NCBI RefSeq assembly: GCF_014764505.1
Contig: NZ_JACXWX010000005.1
Span: 124,001 to 188,000 of the forward strand
Direction of reading: 5' to 3'
Length of the DNA stretch: 64,000 bases
Source of the DNA: Phormidium tenue FACHB-886
GTDB taxonomy: Bacteria > Cyanobacteriota > Cyanobacteriia > Elainellales > Elainellaceae
How positions within the stretch are numbered: position 1 is the first letter of the stretch; each line of letters begins with the position of its first letter. The position numbers and the translations under genes were made by a program. A model generated the notes under the pieces. It saw only the letters and a list, made by a program, of their open reading frames with translations, was not told where the DNA came from and did not search any database. Of this stretch, positions 4,306 through 9,345 are shown piece after piece.

Positions 4306-4333
4306 AGAGCTAGCCGGACTGCTGGCTAGCTCT
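4306..4333 (+). terminator. Hairpin after clpB
   Basis: A perfect 10-bp stem (AGAGCTAGCC, 4306-4315, with its complement at 4324-4333) and an 8-nt loop lie 18 bp after the clpB stop. Only a short pyrimidine tract (CTTTCCT) follows, so it is a plausible but weak intrinsic terminator. Confidence 0.6.
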
Positions 4334-4424: not shown

Positions 4425-5873
4425 ATGCAACAGGAGCGCCTCTCAAGTGGAGTTTTCGGTCTTGATCAGATTTTGCGTGGTGGGCTAATTCCTCAACAGG
4501 CATATCTGGTGCGGGGCAATCCTGGTACTGGGAAAACGATCTTGGGGCTGGAATTTTTAGCTGCAGGCACCGCCAGGAGCGAAAATACATTATTCATTGC
4601 GCTGGGAGAAACAGAGGCGCAAGTCTGCGTCAACGCCAGAAAACTGGGCTTCGATGCCGACGCAATCAATTTTCTTGATTTGACTCCAAATTCCAGCTTT
4701 TTTAGCGAAGTGGAAACCTACGATATCTTCTCGGCAGCAGAAGTAGAGCGAGAGCCAATCACCCAACGTATTGTAGAGCAGGTCAGACAGCTTCAGCCTA
4801 AACGAGTGTTTGTGGATGCGGTTACGCAGCTCCGCTACCTCTCGACGGATGTGTTTCAGTTTCGCAAGCAAATGCTGTCATTCATTCGGTTTCTGCTAGA
4901 GCAAGGCGCAACAGTGCTGTTGGCTTCTGAAAGTAGCGAAGCTGCTTCAGATGACGATCTACAGTTCATGAGCGATGGCGTGATTCACCTCTACCATGCC
5001 AACAACAGTCGCAGCCTGCAGGTCAGCAAGTTTCGTGGCTCAGATTTTCGAGCGGGAATACATACGTTGCGCCTAACAGATTCAGGCATGAAAGTTTTTC
5101 CGCGGCTTCAGCCGGAAGTATATCGGCAAGATTTTGAGACAGAGGCGATCGTATCAGGTGTGCCTGCTTTGGATGCGCTGATGGGTGGCGGCATTGAGCG
5201 CGGCACAACAACTCTGTTTACTGGCTCAAGCGGCACAGGCAAAACGACGATCGGCGCTCAGTTTGTCAAAGCAGCGGCAAGCCGAGGCGAGCGCTCGGTG
5301 CTGTATATGTTTGAAGAGCAGACAGATATTCTGCTGCGTCGTTGTGAATCGGTTAATATTCCAGTGCATGAGATGATCAAGCGGGAAACGTTCTCGCTGG
5401 TGCCGATCGAACCTCTGCGCTTCAGCCCAGATGAATTTGCAGATCTGGTGCGCCAAGAGGTAGAGCAGAAGCATGCTCGACTTGTGATGATTGATAGCGT
5501 TGCAGGCTATCGGCTATCCGTTCAGGGAGCGGATTTAGTCAAACATCTGCACGCCCTCTGCAAATATCTGCAGAATATGGGTGTGACCGTGATTCTCATC
5601 AACGAAGTTGAACAAATTACCGGAGACTTCAAAGCTACTGAGCTAGGCATTAGCTATTTGGCAGATAATATAGTTTTCTTTCGCTACTTAGAGATCGATG
5701 GCGAGATGCGAAAGGCGATCGGCGTTTTGAAGAAGCGATTGTCAGACTTTGAGCGAACCCTGCGGGAATTAAGCATTACCTCAGAAGGAATCAAAGTTGG
5801 AGAGCCTTTGGCACGGCTCCGGGGACTCCTAAGCGGTATGCCGGAGTGGGTAGACAACTACCGTGCGCCATGA
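4425..5873 (+). CDS. KaiC-like double-domain RecA-type ATPase
   Basis: A 482-residue protein with two tandem KaiC/RAD55 domains (about 1-230 and 235-475). Walker A motifs are GNPGTGKT (31-38) and GSSGTGKT (267-274); Walker B aspartates are near D131 and D357. In KaiC each domain carries a catalytic Glu-Glu pair after strand 2. Here the second domain keeps it (E297-E298), while the first reads Gly61-Glu62. At the place of the KaiC Ser431/Thr432 phosphosites the sequence reads I-S410-Y411, so Ser is kept and Thr is Tyr. These alignments are by eye. There is no kaiA or kaiB next to it, so this is a KaiC paralogue, not the clock kaiC. It overlaps the downstream receiver gene by 11 bp and leads a three-gene operon, suggesting it feeds or reads a phosphorelay. 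Confidence 0.88.
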   Translation: MQQERLSSGVFGLDQILRGGLIPQQAYLVRGNPGTGKTILGLEFLAAGTARSENTLFIALGETEAQVCVNARKLGFDADAINFLDLTPNSSFFSEVETYDIFSAAEVEREPITQRIVEQVRQLQPKRVFVDAVTQLRYLSTDVFQFRKQMLSFIRFLLEQGATVLLASESSEAASDDDLQFMSDGVIHLYHANNSRSLQVSKFRGSDFRAGIHTLRLTDSGMKVFPRLQPEVYRQDFETEAIVSGVPALDALMGGGIERGTTTLFTGSSGTGKTTIGAQFVKAAASRGERSVLYMFEEQTDILLRRCESVNIPVHEMIKRETFSLVPIEPLRFSPDEFADLVRQEVEQKHARLVMIDSVAGYRLSVQGADLVKHLHALCKYLQNMGVTVILINEVEQITGDFKATELGISYLADNIVFFRYLEIDGEMRKAIGVLKKRLSDFERTLRELSITSEGIKVGEPLARLRGLLSGMPEWVDNYRAP

Positions 5874-6240
5874 AGACCCATCGCTAATCTTAGTCGTTAA
5901 CTGTAACCGCCGTAATTTACAGTTGATGACTGAATTCCTGCAGTCAAAAGGATATTCTGTTTTTGCAGTAATCCGTCTAGAGGAAGTTGATCAAGCCCTG
6001 AATGGCTCTTTTACAATCAAGTTAGCACTTGTTGATATTTCTGGGTTTGATGCTGGAATCTGGGCGTTCTGTCAGCGGTTACGTCAGCAGGAAATTCCTT
6101 TTCTAGTTATTTCTCCTTCGCAGCAAGCGGCAATTCAGCGGGCAAGCTTAATGCGTGGAGCATTGGGTCTTTTGGTGAAACCGCTCGTGATGCGAGATTT
6201 GCTGCAGCTCGTTCGTAGTTTGGTCAAGGGAGACGGATGA
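5863..6240 (+). CDS. Stand-alone receiver-like protein, degenerate acidic pocket
   Basis: A 125-residue single-domain protein with the alternating alpha/beta pattern of a response-regulator receiver. A likely phospho-acceptor Asp is kept (ALVDISGF), as are a Ser at the Thr/Ser switch (FLVISPS) and the Lys of the LVKP motif. The N-terminal acidic pair that binds Mg2+ is missing: the first strand is followed by VVNCNRRN where DD or ED is expected. It begins at a GTG overlapping the end of the KaiC-like gene and ends overlapping the kinase start by 4 bp (ATGA), so the three genes are probably translationally coupled. With a defective metal site it may signal without phosphorylation or be phosphorylated poorly; that is inference. 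Confidence 0.8.
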   Translation: MRHEDPSLILVVNCNRRNLQLMTEFLQSKGYSVFAVIRLEEVDQALNGSFTIKLALVDISGFDAGIWAFCQRLRQQEIPFLVISPSQQAAIQRASLMRGALGLLVKPLVMRDLLQLVRSLVKGDG

Positions 6241-8771
6241 ATCGCATTCTGCTGCTGCTGGAACATCGAGAAAACAGCCGCCTTTTATCCGAATGGCTAG
6301 CGACTCGCTATGAGGTTGTGGTAGAGGATTGGAATGCTGCAGATGGCTTGCTCTTGTCTTGCCCGTTTGATCTCTGCATTTTAGGAGCCAGGGTGCTAGA
6401 CCAGCTTTGGCAGACTGTGCAAGCCAGAAGAGCTGCTGAGCAGCCTGTTCTGCTGCCGTTTCTCCTGGTTACGGGTCGTCAAGATGTGAAATATGTGACG
6501 CGAGACCTCTGGCAGAGCATCGATGAACTGATTATCCAACCGATCGAAAAAGTAGAACTGCAGGCAAGGGTAGAAATTCTGCTGCGGTCGCGTCAGCTCT
6601 CCCTGCAGCTCAAAGCCACGAATCAACAGCTCGAACAGCAGATTACTGCTCGACAACAGGCAGAAACGAATCGAGACCAAGCGATCGCTGCTCAACAGGT
6701 TGACTTAATGCAGCGTAAGCAGGCAGAAGCTGCTCAGCGAGAAAGCGATGCTCGGCTGCGGTTTGCGTTGGAGTCTGCTCAGATTGGCGAGTGGGAGCTA
6801 GACCTGACTGCTGAGCCTTACTGCATAAGGCGATCGCTGATTCATGACCAAATCTTTGGCTATGACTCGCCGCTGCCAGCCTGGAGCTACAAAACTTTCC
6901 TAAACCATGTGCATCCAAACGATCGGGTTTGGGTGGATCAACGATTTCAGCGTGCTCTGGCAGCTCATGAAGATTGGGACTGCGAATGCAGGATCGTTTG
7001 CGCTGATGGCAGCCTTCGCTGGATCTGGGTGCGGGGCAATACCTACCGAAATACCAACGCTGCCCCAAGCCGCCTGCTAGGAATCGTGGTGGATATCACC
7101 AACCGCAAGGCGGCAGAAGTGGCACTGCAAGAAAAAAACGAACGGCTTGCCCTCCTCTCAACGATTGCAAACCACCTACTGCAAGAACAGCCCCAGAACT
7201 TAGGCGGCTTACTGCAGCAGCTCTCTGCCCATCTTGGTCTAGAGGTGTATTTTAACTACCTGGTGGAGAACAATCGGCTGCGGCTAAACGCCTATGGCGG
7301 CATTTCTGAGGCAACTGCAAAAGAAATTGAGTGGATAGAGTGCGGTGAGGCAGTTTGTGGCACGGTAGTGCTGCAGCAACCGATCGTGGTAGAAGAAGTG
7401 CAGCGACTAACCCACTACCTGGCTGATCTAATTCACTCGTTAGGAATGACTGCCTATGCTTGCTTTCCGCTGATAGGGCGGGGAAAGGTGCTTGGCACAC
7501 TCTCCTTCGGAACGCGCCATCGCACTCGGTTTCAACCTGATGAGCTGGCGGTGATGCAAATCGTCTGCGATCAGGTAGCGACTGCGTTGGAGCGATCTCG
7601 CTTAATGGTGGAGCTGCAGCAGCGGGCAGAAGAGCTAACCCGCGCCAACCGGATTAAGGATGAGTTTCTGGCAGTGCTTTCGCATGAGCTGCGATCGCCG
7701 CTGAACCCAATTTTGGGTTGGGCAAAACTGCTGCAAAACCACGATTTTGATGCTACCCTCCAGAAAAAAGCGATCGAAACGATCGAGCGCAACGCCAAAC
7801 TCCAGTCGCAATTGATCGAAGACCTGCTGGATATTTCTCGAATTTTAAACGGCAAGCTGACGCTGGACATTGGCATAGTCGATTTGAGGGCAACTGTTAG
7901 AGCTGCTCTAGAAACGGTGCAGCTAGCCGCTGATACTAAATCTATCCACATTGAGATGATCGTTACTCCTCTGCAGGTTCGGGGCGATGCCAACCGCCTC
8001 CAGCAGGTTGTCTGGAATTTACTCTCCAATGCCATCAAATTCACGCCAGTGGGCGGGTCAGTAACCATAAAGCTAGAGCAGCTAGACTCTCAGGCGCAAA
8101 TTAGCGTCAGCGATACTGGCAAAGGCATCCAGCCCGACTTTTTGCCTTACGTCTTTGAATCTTTTCGGCAGGCAGACGGCTCAATTACGCGTAAGTTTGG
8201 TGGGCTAGGGTTGGGGCTGGCGATCGTCCGTCAAGTCGTAGAACTGCACGGCGGCACTGTGCAAGCCGCAAGTCCGGGTGAGGGGCAGGGCGCCACCTTC
8301 ACGGTGCGACTTCCGCAGCCGCAGCCTATACAAGTCGCTGCTCCTATCCGTCCTGCCCCTTCATCCTTGCCTGCTGACCACCTCCCGCTTTCAGGAGTTC
8401 AGGTGCTTCTGGTAGAAGATGACCCAGACTCACGCGAATTTCTAACCTTTGTGCTGGAGCAGTCTGGTGCGTTAGTCACTGCTGCTGACTCAGCGATCGA
8501 AGCACTAGAATTGTTAACTCATTCCACGCCCGATGTGTTGCTCAGCGACATTGCTATGCCTGCGGTAGATGGCTATGAGCTGATTCGGCAAATTCGATCG
8601 TTAGCTGCGAACACAAACAAGCAAGTTCCAGCAATTGCCCTCACTGCTTATGCCAGGGAAACCGATCAGCAGCAAGCCCTTAAAGCAGGATTCCAACATC
8701 ACCTCTGCAAGCCTGTTGAACCGGCAAAACTCATTCAAGCGATCGACTATTTAGTTGCTCTGAGGAACTAA
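6237..8771 (+). CDS. Hybrid sensor histidine kinase (pseudo-REC, PAS, GAF, HisKA, HATPase, REC)
   Basis: An 844-residue cytosolic hybrid kinase with no membrane segment. Domains in order: a receiver-like N-terminus (1-118) without the acceptor Asp (CILGARV where a D is expected); a coiled coil (about 120-170); PAS/PAC (about 173-295); GAF (about 303-455); HisKA with the phosphorylated His483 in LSHELRSP; HATPase_c with N-box NLLSNAIKF and G-boxes DTGKG and GLGLGLA (about 580-692); and a C-terminal receiver with VLLVEDD and acceptor Asp771 (LLSDIAMP). The GAF domain lacks an obvious chromophore-binding Cys-His pair, so I do not call it a phytochrome. It is third in the KaiC-like operon, which suggests it is the partner kinase; the signal is unknown. 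Confidence 0.9.
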   Translation: MNRILLLLEHRENSRLLSEWLATRYEVVVEDWNAADGLLLSCPFDLCILGARVLDQLWQTVQARRAAEQPVLLPFLLVTGRQDVKYVTRDLWQSIDELIIQPIEKVELQARVEILLRSRQLSLQLKATNQQLEQQITARQQAETNRDQAIAAQQVDLMQRKQAEAAQRESDARLRFALESAQIGEWELDLTAEPYCIRRSLIHDQIFGYDSPLPAWSYKTFLNHVHPNDRVWVDQRFQRALAAHEDWDCECRIVCADGSLRWIWVRGNTYRNTNAAPSRLLGIVVDITNRKAAEVALQEKNERLALLSTIANHLLQEQPQNLGGLLQQLSAHLGLEVYFNYLVENNRLRLNAYGGISEATAKEIEWIECGEAVCGTVVLQQPIVVEEVQRLTHYLADLIHSLGMTAYACFPLIGRGKVLGTLSFGTRHRTRFQPDELAVMQIVCDQVATALERSRLMVELQQRAEELTRANRIKDEFLAVLSHELRSPLNPILGWAKLLQNHDFDATLQKKAIETIERNAKLQSQLIEDLLDISRILNGKLTLDIGIVDLRATVRAALETVQLAADTKSIHIEMIVTPLQVRGDANRLQQVVWNLLSNAIKFTPVGGSVTIKLEQLDSQAQISVSDTGKGIQPDFLPYVFESFRQADGSITRKFGGLGLGLAIVRQVVELHGGTVQAASPGEGQGATFTVRLPQPQPIQVAAPIRPAPSSLPADHLPLSGVQVLLVEDDPDSREFLTFVLEQSGALVTAADSAIEALELLTHSTPDVLLSDIAMPAVDGYELIRQIRSLAANTNKQVPAIALTAYARETDQQQALKAGFQHHLCKPVEPAKLIQAIDYLVALRN

Positions 8772-9027: not shown

Positions 9028-9175
9028 ATGAGCTTGAACGAAAGAGCTAAAGCAGTAGCTGAAAGCGTTGAAGAAAAGCTTCAAGATGCAGCAAGCAAAG
9101 CAGGCTAAAGCAGCAGGTCGCAATGCCAAAGAATATGTCAAAGGTGAAGTAAAGCGCAATTTGGGTCGTGATTAA
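9028..9175 (+). pseudogene. Small charged stress-type protein gene, apparent frameshift
   Basis: An ATG at 9028 with a good GGAG site (9017-9020) opens MSLNERAKAVAESVEEKLQ and stops at 9106-9108. The next frame carries on directly with a Lys/Ala-rich stretch ending KGEVKRNLGRD at a stop at 9173-9175. Skipping one base near 9100 joins the two into one protein of about 48 residues. The MSLNERAKA start recalls the small CsbD-like/stress proteins common in cyanobacteria, but the match is short. Either the gene is broken by a 1-nt indel, there is a sequencing error, or the first 26-codon frame is used alone. Confidence 0.5.
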
Positions 9176-9345
9176 TTATTACAGCGCAAACTCGCTTTAC
9201 CAAACTAATCTTTCAAACTGCAAACAGCGATTTTGTTATGCTCCATGCTCTTTCTTAAAAGAGATTCCGGGCAGGCAGCAAACCTGGTTTGACACAGCTG
9301 AAGTCGCTGAAGGCAGTTAATTTATCTAAACTCAAGGAGGTTAAC

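Follow-up and report, generated by a model that had tools for sequence, protein, structure and literature searches.

KaiC-type ATPases are already known to be coupled to histidine kinases, through SasA, through CikA, in kaiBC-kinase operons and in archaeal KaiC-like hubs. CikA has a GAF domain and carries its pseudoreceiver at the C-terminal end, after the kinase core. In Legionella, KaiC and a kinase share an operon, and Makarova and co-workers are said to have described archaeal KaiC-like signalling hubs in 2017. Excerpts of the published literature state that SasA and KaiB compete for one site on CI, where changes in the B-loop weaken the binding of both, and that the CikA pseudoreceiver binds fold-switched KaiB (PMC6378743); the B-loop itself is given as residues 116-123 of KaiC (PMC12084410). 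KaiC and a kinase also share an operon in Rhodobacter, there with kaiB, and KaiC is considered very unlikely to stimulate the SasA homologues found outside cyanobacteria, since these lack the KaiB-like docking domain (PMC5520375). KaiC-like ATPases are mentioned as signal transduction hubs, and up to 40% of archaeal REC-HisK kinases might not be phosphorylated (PMC5847659). Here, we describe a three-gene operon in a stretch of 64,000 nucleotides from Phormidium tenue FACHB-886 (contig NZ_JACXWX010000005.1, positions 124,001 to 188,000), which is referred to as the window. It encodes a KaiC-like ATPase, a small free receiver, named RR2, and a hybrid histidine kinase which begins with a degenerate receiver, or pseudoreceiver, named Nrec. 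The ATPase-kinase pair has been inherited together across bacteria and haloarchaea, and we propose, with a probability of roughly 0.6, that a KaiC-type ATPase ring is coupled to a cytosolic histidine kinase through the pseudoreceiver.

The ATPase is a member of the KaiC superfamily: it matches PF06745 over two stretches (E 8e-75, 251 bits, cut-off 26.6) and KaiC in the PDB with E 7e-56. The AlphaFold2 model, made from 39 family sequences, has a mean predicted local distance difference test score (pLDDT) of 84.6, and superimposes on KaiC 8jon with a Z score of 35.9 (root-mean-square deviation 3.9, 467 residues aligned). It scores below the curated cut-offs for circadian KaiC, both for TIGR02655 (182 versus 546) and for NF006799 (270 versus 408), and is 26% identical to the KaiC of its own genome. 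Alignment to that KaiC shows that the chain stops short of the KaiA-binding tail, and that the circadian S-T pair of phosphorylation sites in CII is S-Y in the window. A Tyr at the T432 site is known from some KaiC3 proteins (PMC5520375); two haloarchaeal sequences have H or N at the Y411 position. Of the two catalytic Glu residues in CI, the first is mostly replaced by Gly or Ala across the window and its 55 orthologues (56 sequences in all), and is Glu in many haloarchaea.

The kinase has HisKA, HATPase and receiver domains on one chain, and is thus a hybrid histidine kinase; no membrane helix was found by hydropathy in its 844 residues, and we read it as cytosolic. Pfam reports nothing over residues 1-125, and the identification of this region as a receiver comes from profile and structure comparison. 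A profile of 24 Nrec members matches 63 PDB sequences with a best E of 1e-12, and the names of the 60 that were listed are those of response regulators or of other proteins with a receiver. The AlphaFold2 model of Nrec (pLDDT 87.3) has a receiver fold, with a long and continuous last helix (residues 105-142) heading to the kinase core, and structure comparison finds receivers at Z 14-16. The pseudoreceivers of CikA and KaiA are absent among the structure matches listed, which excludes nothing. The kinase has no match at E <=0.01 to the KaiB-like domain of SasA (PF07689), its N-terminus being a receiver fold, and it does not have the layout of CikA either, its C-terminal receiver being intact and its pseudoreceiver N-terminal. 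The complete phosphorylation pocket (acidic pair, acceptor Asp and Lys) is found in none of the 56 Nrec sequences, because every one of them lacks the second acidic residue; in the window, the acceptor position is Gly, and the first acidic position, a Glu, is the only pocket residue retained. Across the family, Nrec has a mean pairwise identity of 0.54, compared with 0.42 for the kinase core.

The three genes lie on the plus strand and overlap by 11 bp and then by 4 bp, which confirms the coordinates given in an earlier sequence-only reading of the window. That reading also saw that the operon lacks kaiA and kaiB, and the list of open reading frames (ORFs) and the Pfam results agree with it; what it missed is the second degenerate receiver, kinase residues 1-125.

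Orthologous loci were gathered using the ATPase alone. This gave 61 full-length proteins, or 55 once six copies on the same contigs had been dropped, and at all 55 loci an Nrec-headed kinase lies downstream on the same strand. Most of the intergenic gaps are shorter than 100 bp and many are 4-bp overlaps. Together with the window, the orthologues make 29 single-linkage clusters at 80% identity, and the hosts named include Cyanobacteria, Ktedonobacteria (Chloroflexota), Caldilineaceae, one metagenome-assembled genome (MAG) of Rhodocyclaceae and one of Ignavibacteriaceae. Left out of the 55 were L065 (partial), L055/L111 (a single broken ATPase gene, represented twice) and L066 (distant); an Nrec-kinase adjoins L055/L111, and a weak one adjoins L066. 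The sequence-only reading had proposed conserved co-location with the kinase and receiver as a check, and loss of the neighbourhood did not occur. Its picture of a module of KaiC-like ATPase, receiver and kinase holds for the kinase, which is constant and Nrec-headed, and fails for the free receiver, which lies between ATPase and kinase at only 24 of the 55 loci; a universal RR2 was accordingly rejected. In the same way, the domains of its hybrid kinase are borne out in the window, and a C-terminal receiver like that of the window, whose own sequence served as the query, is present in only four of the other 55 (L048, L049, L057 and L106).

The distribution of the module is patchy. A high-scoring orthologue is found in 8 of 251 Chloroflexota genomes; two of these were already among the 55, and an Nrec-kinase is present at each of the six others (6/6), RR2 at one of them. 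Within the family to which the window belongs, the ATPase occurs in 8 of 35 other genomes at an identity of at least 60%, and a wider cyanobacterial draw finds it in 10 of 292 genomes, its own included, at 54% or more. A survey of Nrec in these 292 genomes, with at most 14 candidates scored per genome, finds 13 matches of at least 100 bits, 12 of which (counting the window) are beside this ATPase. The one remaining match is a paralogue, and its genome encodes the ATPase-kinase pair elsewhere.

The pairing extends to the archaea. A tblastn search of plasmids returned 244 records, of which 24 were fetched and 11 are haloarchaeal (39-56% identity). Nine of the 11 have one or two Nrec-kinases nearby, counting a weak one in L217 at 42 bits, a score within the reach of ordinary receivers. 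At the locus of Haladaptatus sp. DYSN1, the kinase is upstream on the opposite strand, two genes away. In the remaining two, both from Haladaptatus, RR2 overlaps the ATPase gene. At six haloarchaeal loci (L205, L206, L210, L211, L212 and L216), the KaiC-like gene is followed by two Nrec-kinases in a row, and such tandem kinases possibly read one ring. The same search includes an Acaryochloris plasmid with a divergent Nrec-kinase.

In a tree built from 59 KaiC-like proteins, one branch sets all of those with Nrec or RR2 as neighbour apart (support of 99 in the Shimodaira-Hasegawa-like approximate likelihood ratio test, SH-aLRT), and the partner label changes once, for labels given per locus and a quick tree search without bootstrap. 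L066 and L005 were lost from this tree, their matches being short, and L206, with its ATPase gene in two ORFs, is not in it. When nine loci were added, a sister group of 15 was found on one side of a branch (support 100), with other KaiC-likes on another (99). This sister group comprises rhizobia and other Proteobacteria, one Chloroflexota genome and two cyanobacteria, and at all 15 fetched loci the ATPase is beside a kinase with a different degenerate receiver-like N-terminus, so the combination of a KaiC-like ATPase with a pseudoreceiver-kinase extends beyond the clade of the window. Pfam reports no receiver at the N-terminus of these kinases. Their profile has as its best PDB match the 'Sensor protein' chain 3gt7 (E 6.6e-5), which we take to be a receiver, and proteins named as receivers follow from E 0.0018 up; it matches Nrec weakly, with a probability of 13.6% and an E of 0.002, and RR2 better, with a probability of 91.9%. 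On these profile matches, the domain is likely to be a receiver, and among 12 aligned members the place of the acceptor Asp is taken by Thr, Ser or Ala. An initial view of Nrec as the sole pseudoreceiver partner was corrected in consequence, as the sister-group kinases carry another degenerate receiver.

A candidate docking site can be proposed on the ATPase. Of all 20-residue windows along its sequence, residues 89-108 rank first for clade-specific conservation, with 0.71 compared with 0.21 in other KaiC-likes, a contrast inflated by outgroup KaiCs that are gapped at the B-loop (the runner-up has 0.74 versus 0.36). These residues align with the B-loop region of KaiC. The distant relative L066, which groups with the clade when placed on CI alone, supports this site independently. 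Its CI is 43% identical and keeps the B-loop motif, and its CII is unrecognisable (17% identity); because it nevertheless has a weak Nrec-kinase adjoining, CI is indicated as the docking side. Docking is thus probably at the CI B-loop, the place where KaiB and SasA bind KaiC, as far as conservation and alignment can indicate. The gene of L066 (6770-9223 of that locus) has only its CI half conserved, with CII decayed or replaced.

In the mechanism that we propose, Nrec would bind to the ring of the ATPase, with the CI loop as the probable site, and would read the nucleotide state of the ring or its phosphorylation state at S410-Y411. The last helix of Nrec would relay the state of the ring to the kinase core, and in the window H483 would then hand phosphate to D771 in the C-terminal receiver, from where it would go on to an unlinked carrier or regulator. 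Where RR2 is present, it may act as a second ring-bound modulator, an optional extra reader. This would be an action like that of SasA achieved with no KaiB fold, the pseudoreceiver standing in for the KaiB-like domain. It is possible that the module performs timing.

Several observations weigh against this reading, in which docking, timing and output are inferred. The acceptor Asp is retained in 43 of the 56 Nrec sequences, though not in the window, and RR2 is missing from 31 of the 55 orthologous loci. As a control, 14 Chloroflexota loci that carry other KaiC-likes were compared, and at five of them the kinase profile has a match immediately next to the ATPase gene; a kinase neighbour is therefore not rare for KaiC-likes, yet not the rule. 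In three of these five, which have tandem KaiC-likes, the N-terminus of the kinase has no receiver visible on reading the sequence, and the pairing with a pseudoreceiver-kinase is thus not general to all KaiC-likes. One Nrec copy, at 141 bits, has no KaiC beside it, nor do four Nrec-like kinases of 85-95 bits from a single genus. The correlation of KaiC distances with Nrec distances (0.87) is only modestly above that with the kinase core (0.78), and both share the phylogeny. At the proposed docking segment, AlphaFold2 confidence in the B-loop part is low (pLDDT about 55), and the conservation contrast suffers from the gapped outgroup noted above. Finally, no conserved fourth or output gene was found beside the operon among the loci compared; the commonest extra gene is a further hybrid kinase, at five loci in 4 clusters, from Ktedonobacteria where checked.

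The flow of information could also be reversed, with the kinase and receivers controlling the ATPase. The effector would then be the ATPase itself, working as a RecA-fold motor or chaperone on some other target. RR2 matches PF00072 with 29.9 bits, just below the cut-off of 30.2. Its D58 (nucleotides 6034-6036) is kept in 25 of 25 sequences, which favours reversed flow, and its Lys in 24; against it, the second acidic residue is absent from all 25, so that the acidic pair is never complete and RR2 does not have the pocket of a phosphorylatable receiver. Reversed flow would also suit the two haloarchaeal loci that have the ATPase and RR2 with no adjacent kinase, and the lack of a conserved DNA-binding regulator beside the operon. 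It sits poorly with the broken pocket of Nrec in all 56 sequences, and with the fusion of Nrec to the kinase at the position of an input domain. We consider it unlikely, though it is the strongest of the alternatives. In all 11 genomes examined that have no RR2 in the operon, the RR2 profile finds no receiver above 49.3 bits, compared with 171-181 in two RR2-bearing genomes. A special closeness of RR2 to Nrec, in the style of KaiB and the SasA N-terminus, was considered, and is unsupported despite a profile match of E 1e-7; when run on its own genome, the Nrec profile lists 25 other places, at 40.8 bits or less, and RR2 is not among them.

A further question is whether the products are physically coupled at all, or whether the genes simply travel together as a cassette, as the patchy distribution, the plasmid locations and the dispensability of RR2 might suggest. 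Here the history of the kinase is informative. The Nrec of the window is 34-79% identical to those of the orthologues; its kinase core is 21-37% identical to theirs, except in three close relatives (61-64%), and shares 65-70% identity with 20 kinase cores found, unlinked, in its own genome. In a tree of cores, the four from the window group nest among 11 unlinked cores of the same genome (SH-aLRT 99), 13 other cyanobacterial operon cores form a separate group (SH-aLRT 98), and a further unlinked core, on a long branch, is placed elsewhere. From these identities and this tree we conclude that one lineage swapped its core and kept its Nrec. Exchange of the core with retention of Nrec, association within one clade over bacteria and archaea, and genes that overlap or are closely spaced all argue against a mere cassette, which we regard as improbable. 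The 20 cores belong to a hybrid kinase family spread over the genome, seemingly the source of the swapped core.

The relation to the circadian clock can be judged from the distribution of KaiB. Elsewhere in the window genome, a kaiA-like gene, a kaiB-like gene and kaiC are in a row (kaiA and kaiB being named by reading the ORFs). No KaiB domain was detected in 7 of 15 other module-bearing genomes, namely six Ktedonobacteria (including isolates of Dictyobacter, three in number, and one of Ktedonosporobacter) and one Rhodocyclaceae MAG; three of the seven hosts are MAGs and possibly incomplete. The remaining alternative, an accessory arm of the KaiABC clock in which canonical KaiC rings would take up the ATPase or be modulated by it and the kinase would act like CikA or SasA, fits the presence of that gene cluster and the KaiC-like fold and motifs, but is made the least probable of all by these hosts with no detected KaiB, by the absent KaiA-binding tail and by the low identity to the KaiC of the same genome. 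The placing of the module outside the core clock in the sequence-only reading is thus upheld.

Coupling of the ATPase ring to the kinase through the pseudoreceiver therefore remains our preferred reading. A broader proposal, which we offer tentatively and hold to be rather less probable than the coupling itself, is that these proteins represent a KaiB-free class of KaiC output common to bacteria and archaea, in which pseudoreceivers replaced the KaiB fold as readers of the ring. Free and kinase-fused receivers would then correspond to KaiB and SasA, two sister groups would use two kinds of degenerate receiver, and the whole could form a KaiB-independent timer. Many of the hosts, to go by their names and sources, are from soil, rock surfaces or salt, which hints at drying or light stress.

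The features of the operon are collected in Table 1. The hairpin upstream is weakly supported, as there are 8 such sites in the region compared with a shuffle mean of 5.2, and a promoter scan gave a signal at chance level. At 9028-9176 of the window there is a short gene broken by a frame change, its first half in one frame and its second half in another; it looks like CsbD. Other loci also have features of their own. In L055/L111, from a cyanobacterial MAG, and in L206, from a Haloarcula plasmid, the KaiC-like gene is divided between two ORFs, and the kinase genes are open. In the Haladaptatus plasmids L208 and L218, where the KaiC-like gene is followed by RR2, genes of RNase H-like and cyclase families are near, and the KaiC-like/RR2 pair occurs twice in L208. 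L153-L156, from one cyanobacterial genus, have Nrec-like kinases of 837-876 residues near an ORF of 748 residues, with no KaiC-like gene.

Table 1. Positions in the window of the operon, its domains and motifs, and the upstream hairpin (aa, amino acids).
Feature	Position	Strand	Evidence
KaiC-like two-domain ATPase, 482 aa	4425..5873	+	PF06745 twice
CI Walker A (G31..T38)	4515..4538	+	G31, G34, G36, K37 56/56; T38 55/56
Clade-specific segment aa 89-111, FF..TYDIF..AEVEREP, proposed docking site	4689..4757	+	At KaiC B-loop
CII Walker A	5223..5246	+	G267, G270, K273 56/56
CII catalytic Glu pair E297-E298	5313..5318	+	E297 55/56, E298 56/56
S410-Y411, at KaiC S431-T432	5652..5657	+	S 54/56, Y 56/56; own-KaiC alignment
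Free degenerate receiver RR2, 125 aa, GTG start	5863..6240	+	29.9 bits to PF00072
Hybrid histidine kinase, 844 aa	6237..8771	+	Pfam domains
Nrec, N-terminal pseudoreceiver, kinase aa 1-125	6237..6611	+	AlphaFold2 model, structure comparison, PDB profile matches
PAS domain	6849..7088	+	PF08447 E 8.5e-17
GAF domain	7212..7589	+	PF01590 E 8e-15
HisKA (H483) and HATPase core, swapped in from expanded hybrid kinase family	7656..8321	+	Pfam, identities, tree
C-terminal receiver (D771)	8403..8744	+	PF00072 E 4e-28; key residues intact by reading
Terminator-like hairpin upstream of operon, after upstream ORF	4308..4327	+	Weak

Among the systems already described, the archaeal hubs likewise have KaiC-like ATPases in signal transduction; the passages covered describe neither the bacterial-archaeal clade nor its pairing with Nrec or RR2. 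Similarly, a KaiB-free pairing with a pseudoreceiver-kinase across bacteria and archaea was found in no description among the best matches in the open-licence literature; only that literature was covered, so novelty is not proven. The kaiBC-kinase operons of Rhodobacter and Legionella likewise unite KaiC and a kinase in one operon, but contain kaiB, whereas there is none here. CikA shares with the window kinase a pseudoreceiver, a GAF domain and a histidine kinase; it differs in that the pseudoreceiver of the window is N-terminal and the C-terminal receiver intact, and in that 7 of the 15 hosts have no detected KaiB with which a CikA-like pseudoreceiver could engage.

A kinase headed by a pseudoreceiver and inherited with its ATPase offers a concrete candidate for the link that has been missing between KaiC and kinases, and two or three soluble proteins would suffice to test directly how KaiC-like ATPases signal, in bacteria as in archaea. 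A further close parallel is the KaiC-SasA-RpaA pathway, which also consists of a KaiC-fold ATPase and a kinase with a non-catalytic N-terminal domain. In SasA this domain has a KaiB-like thioredoxin fold, whereas in the window kinase it has a receiver fold; the operon of the window has no kaiA or kaiB, and its ATPase has no KaiA tail and has S-Y rather than S-T. The module thus suggests a route by which KaiC-type rings could control kinases without KaiB.

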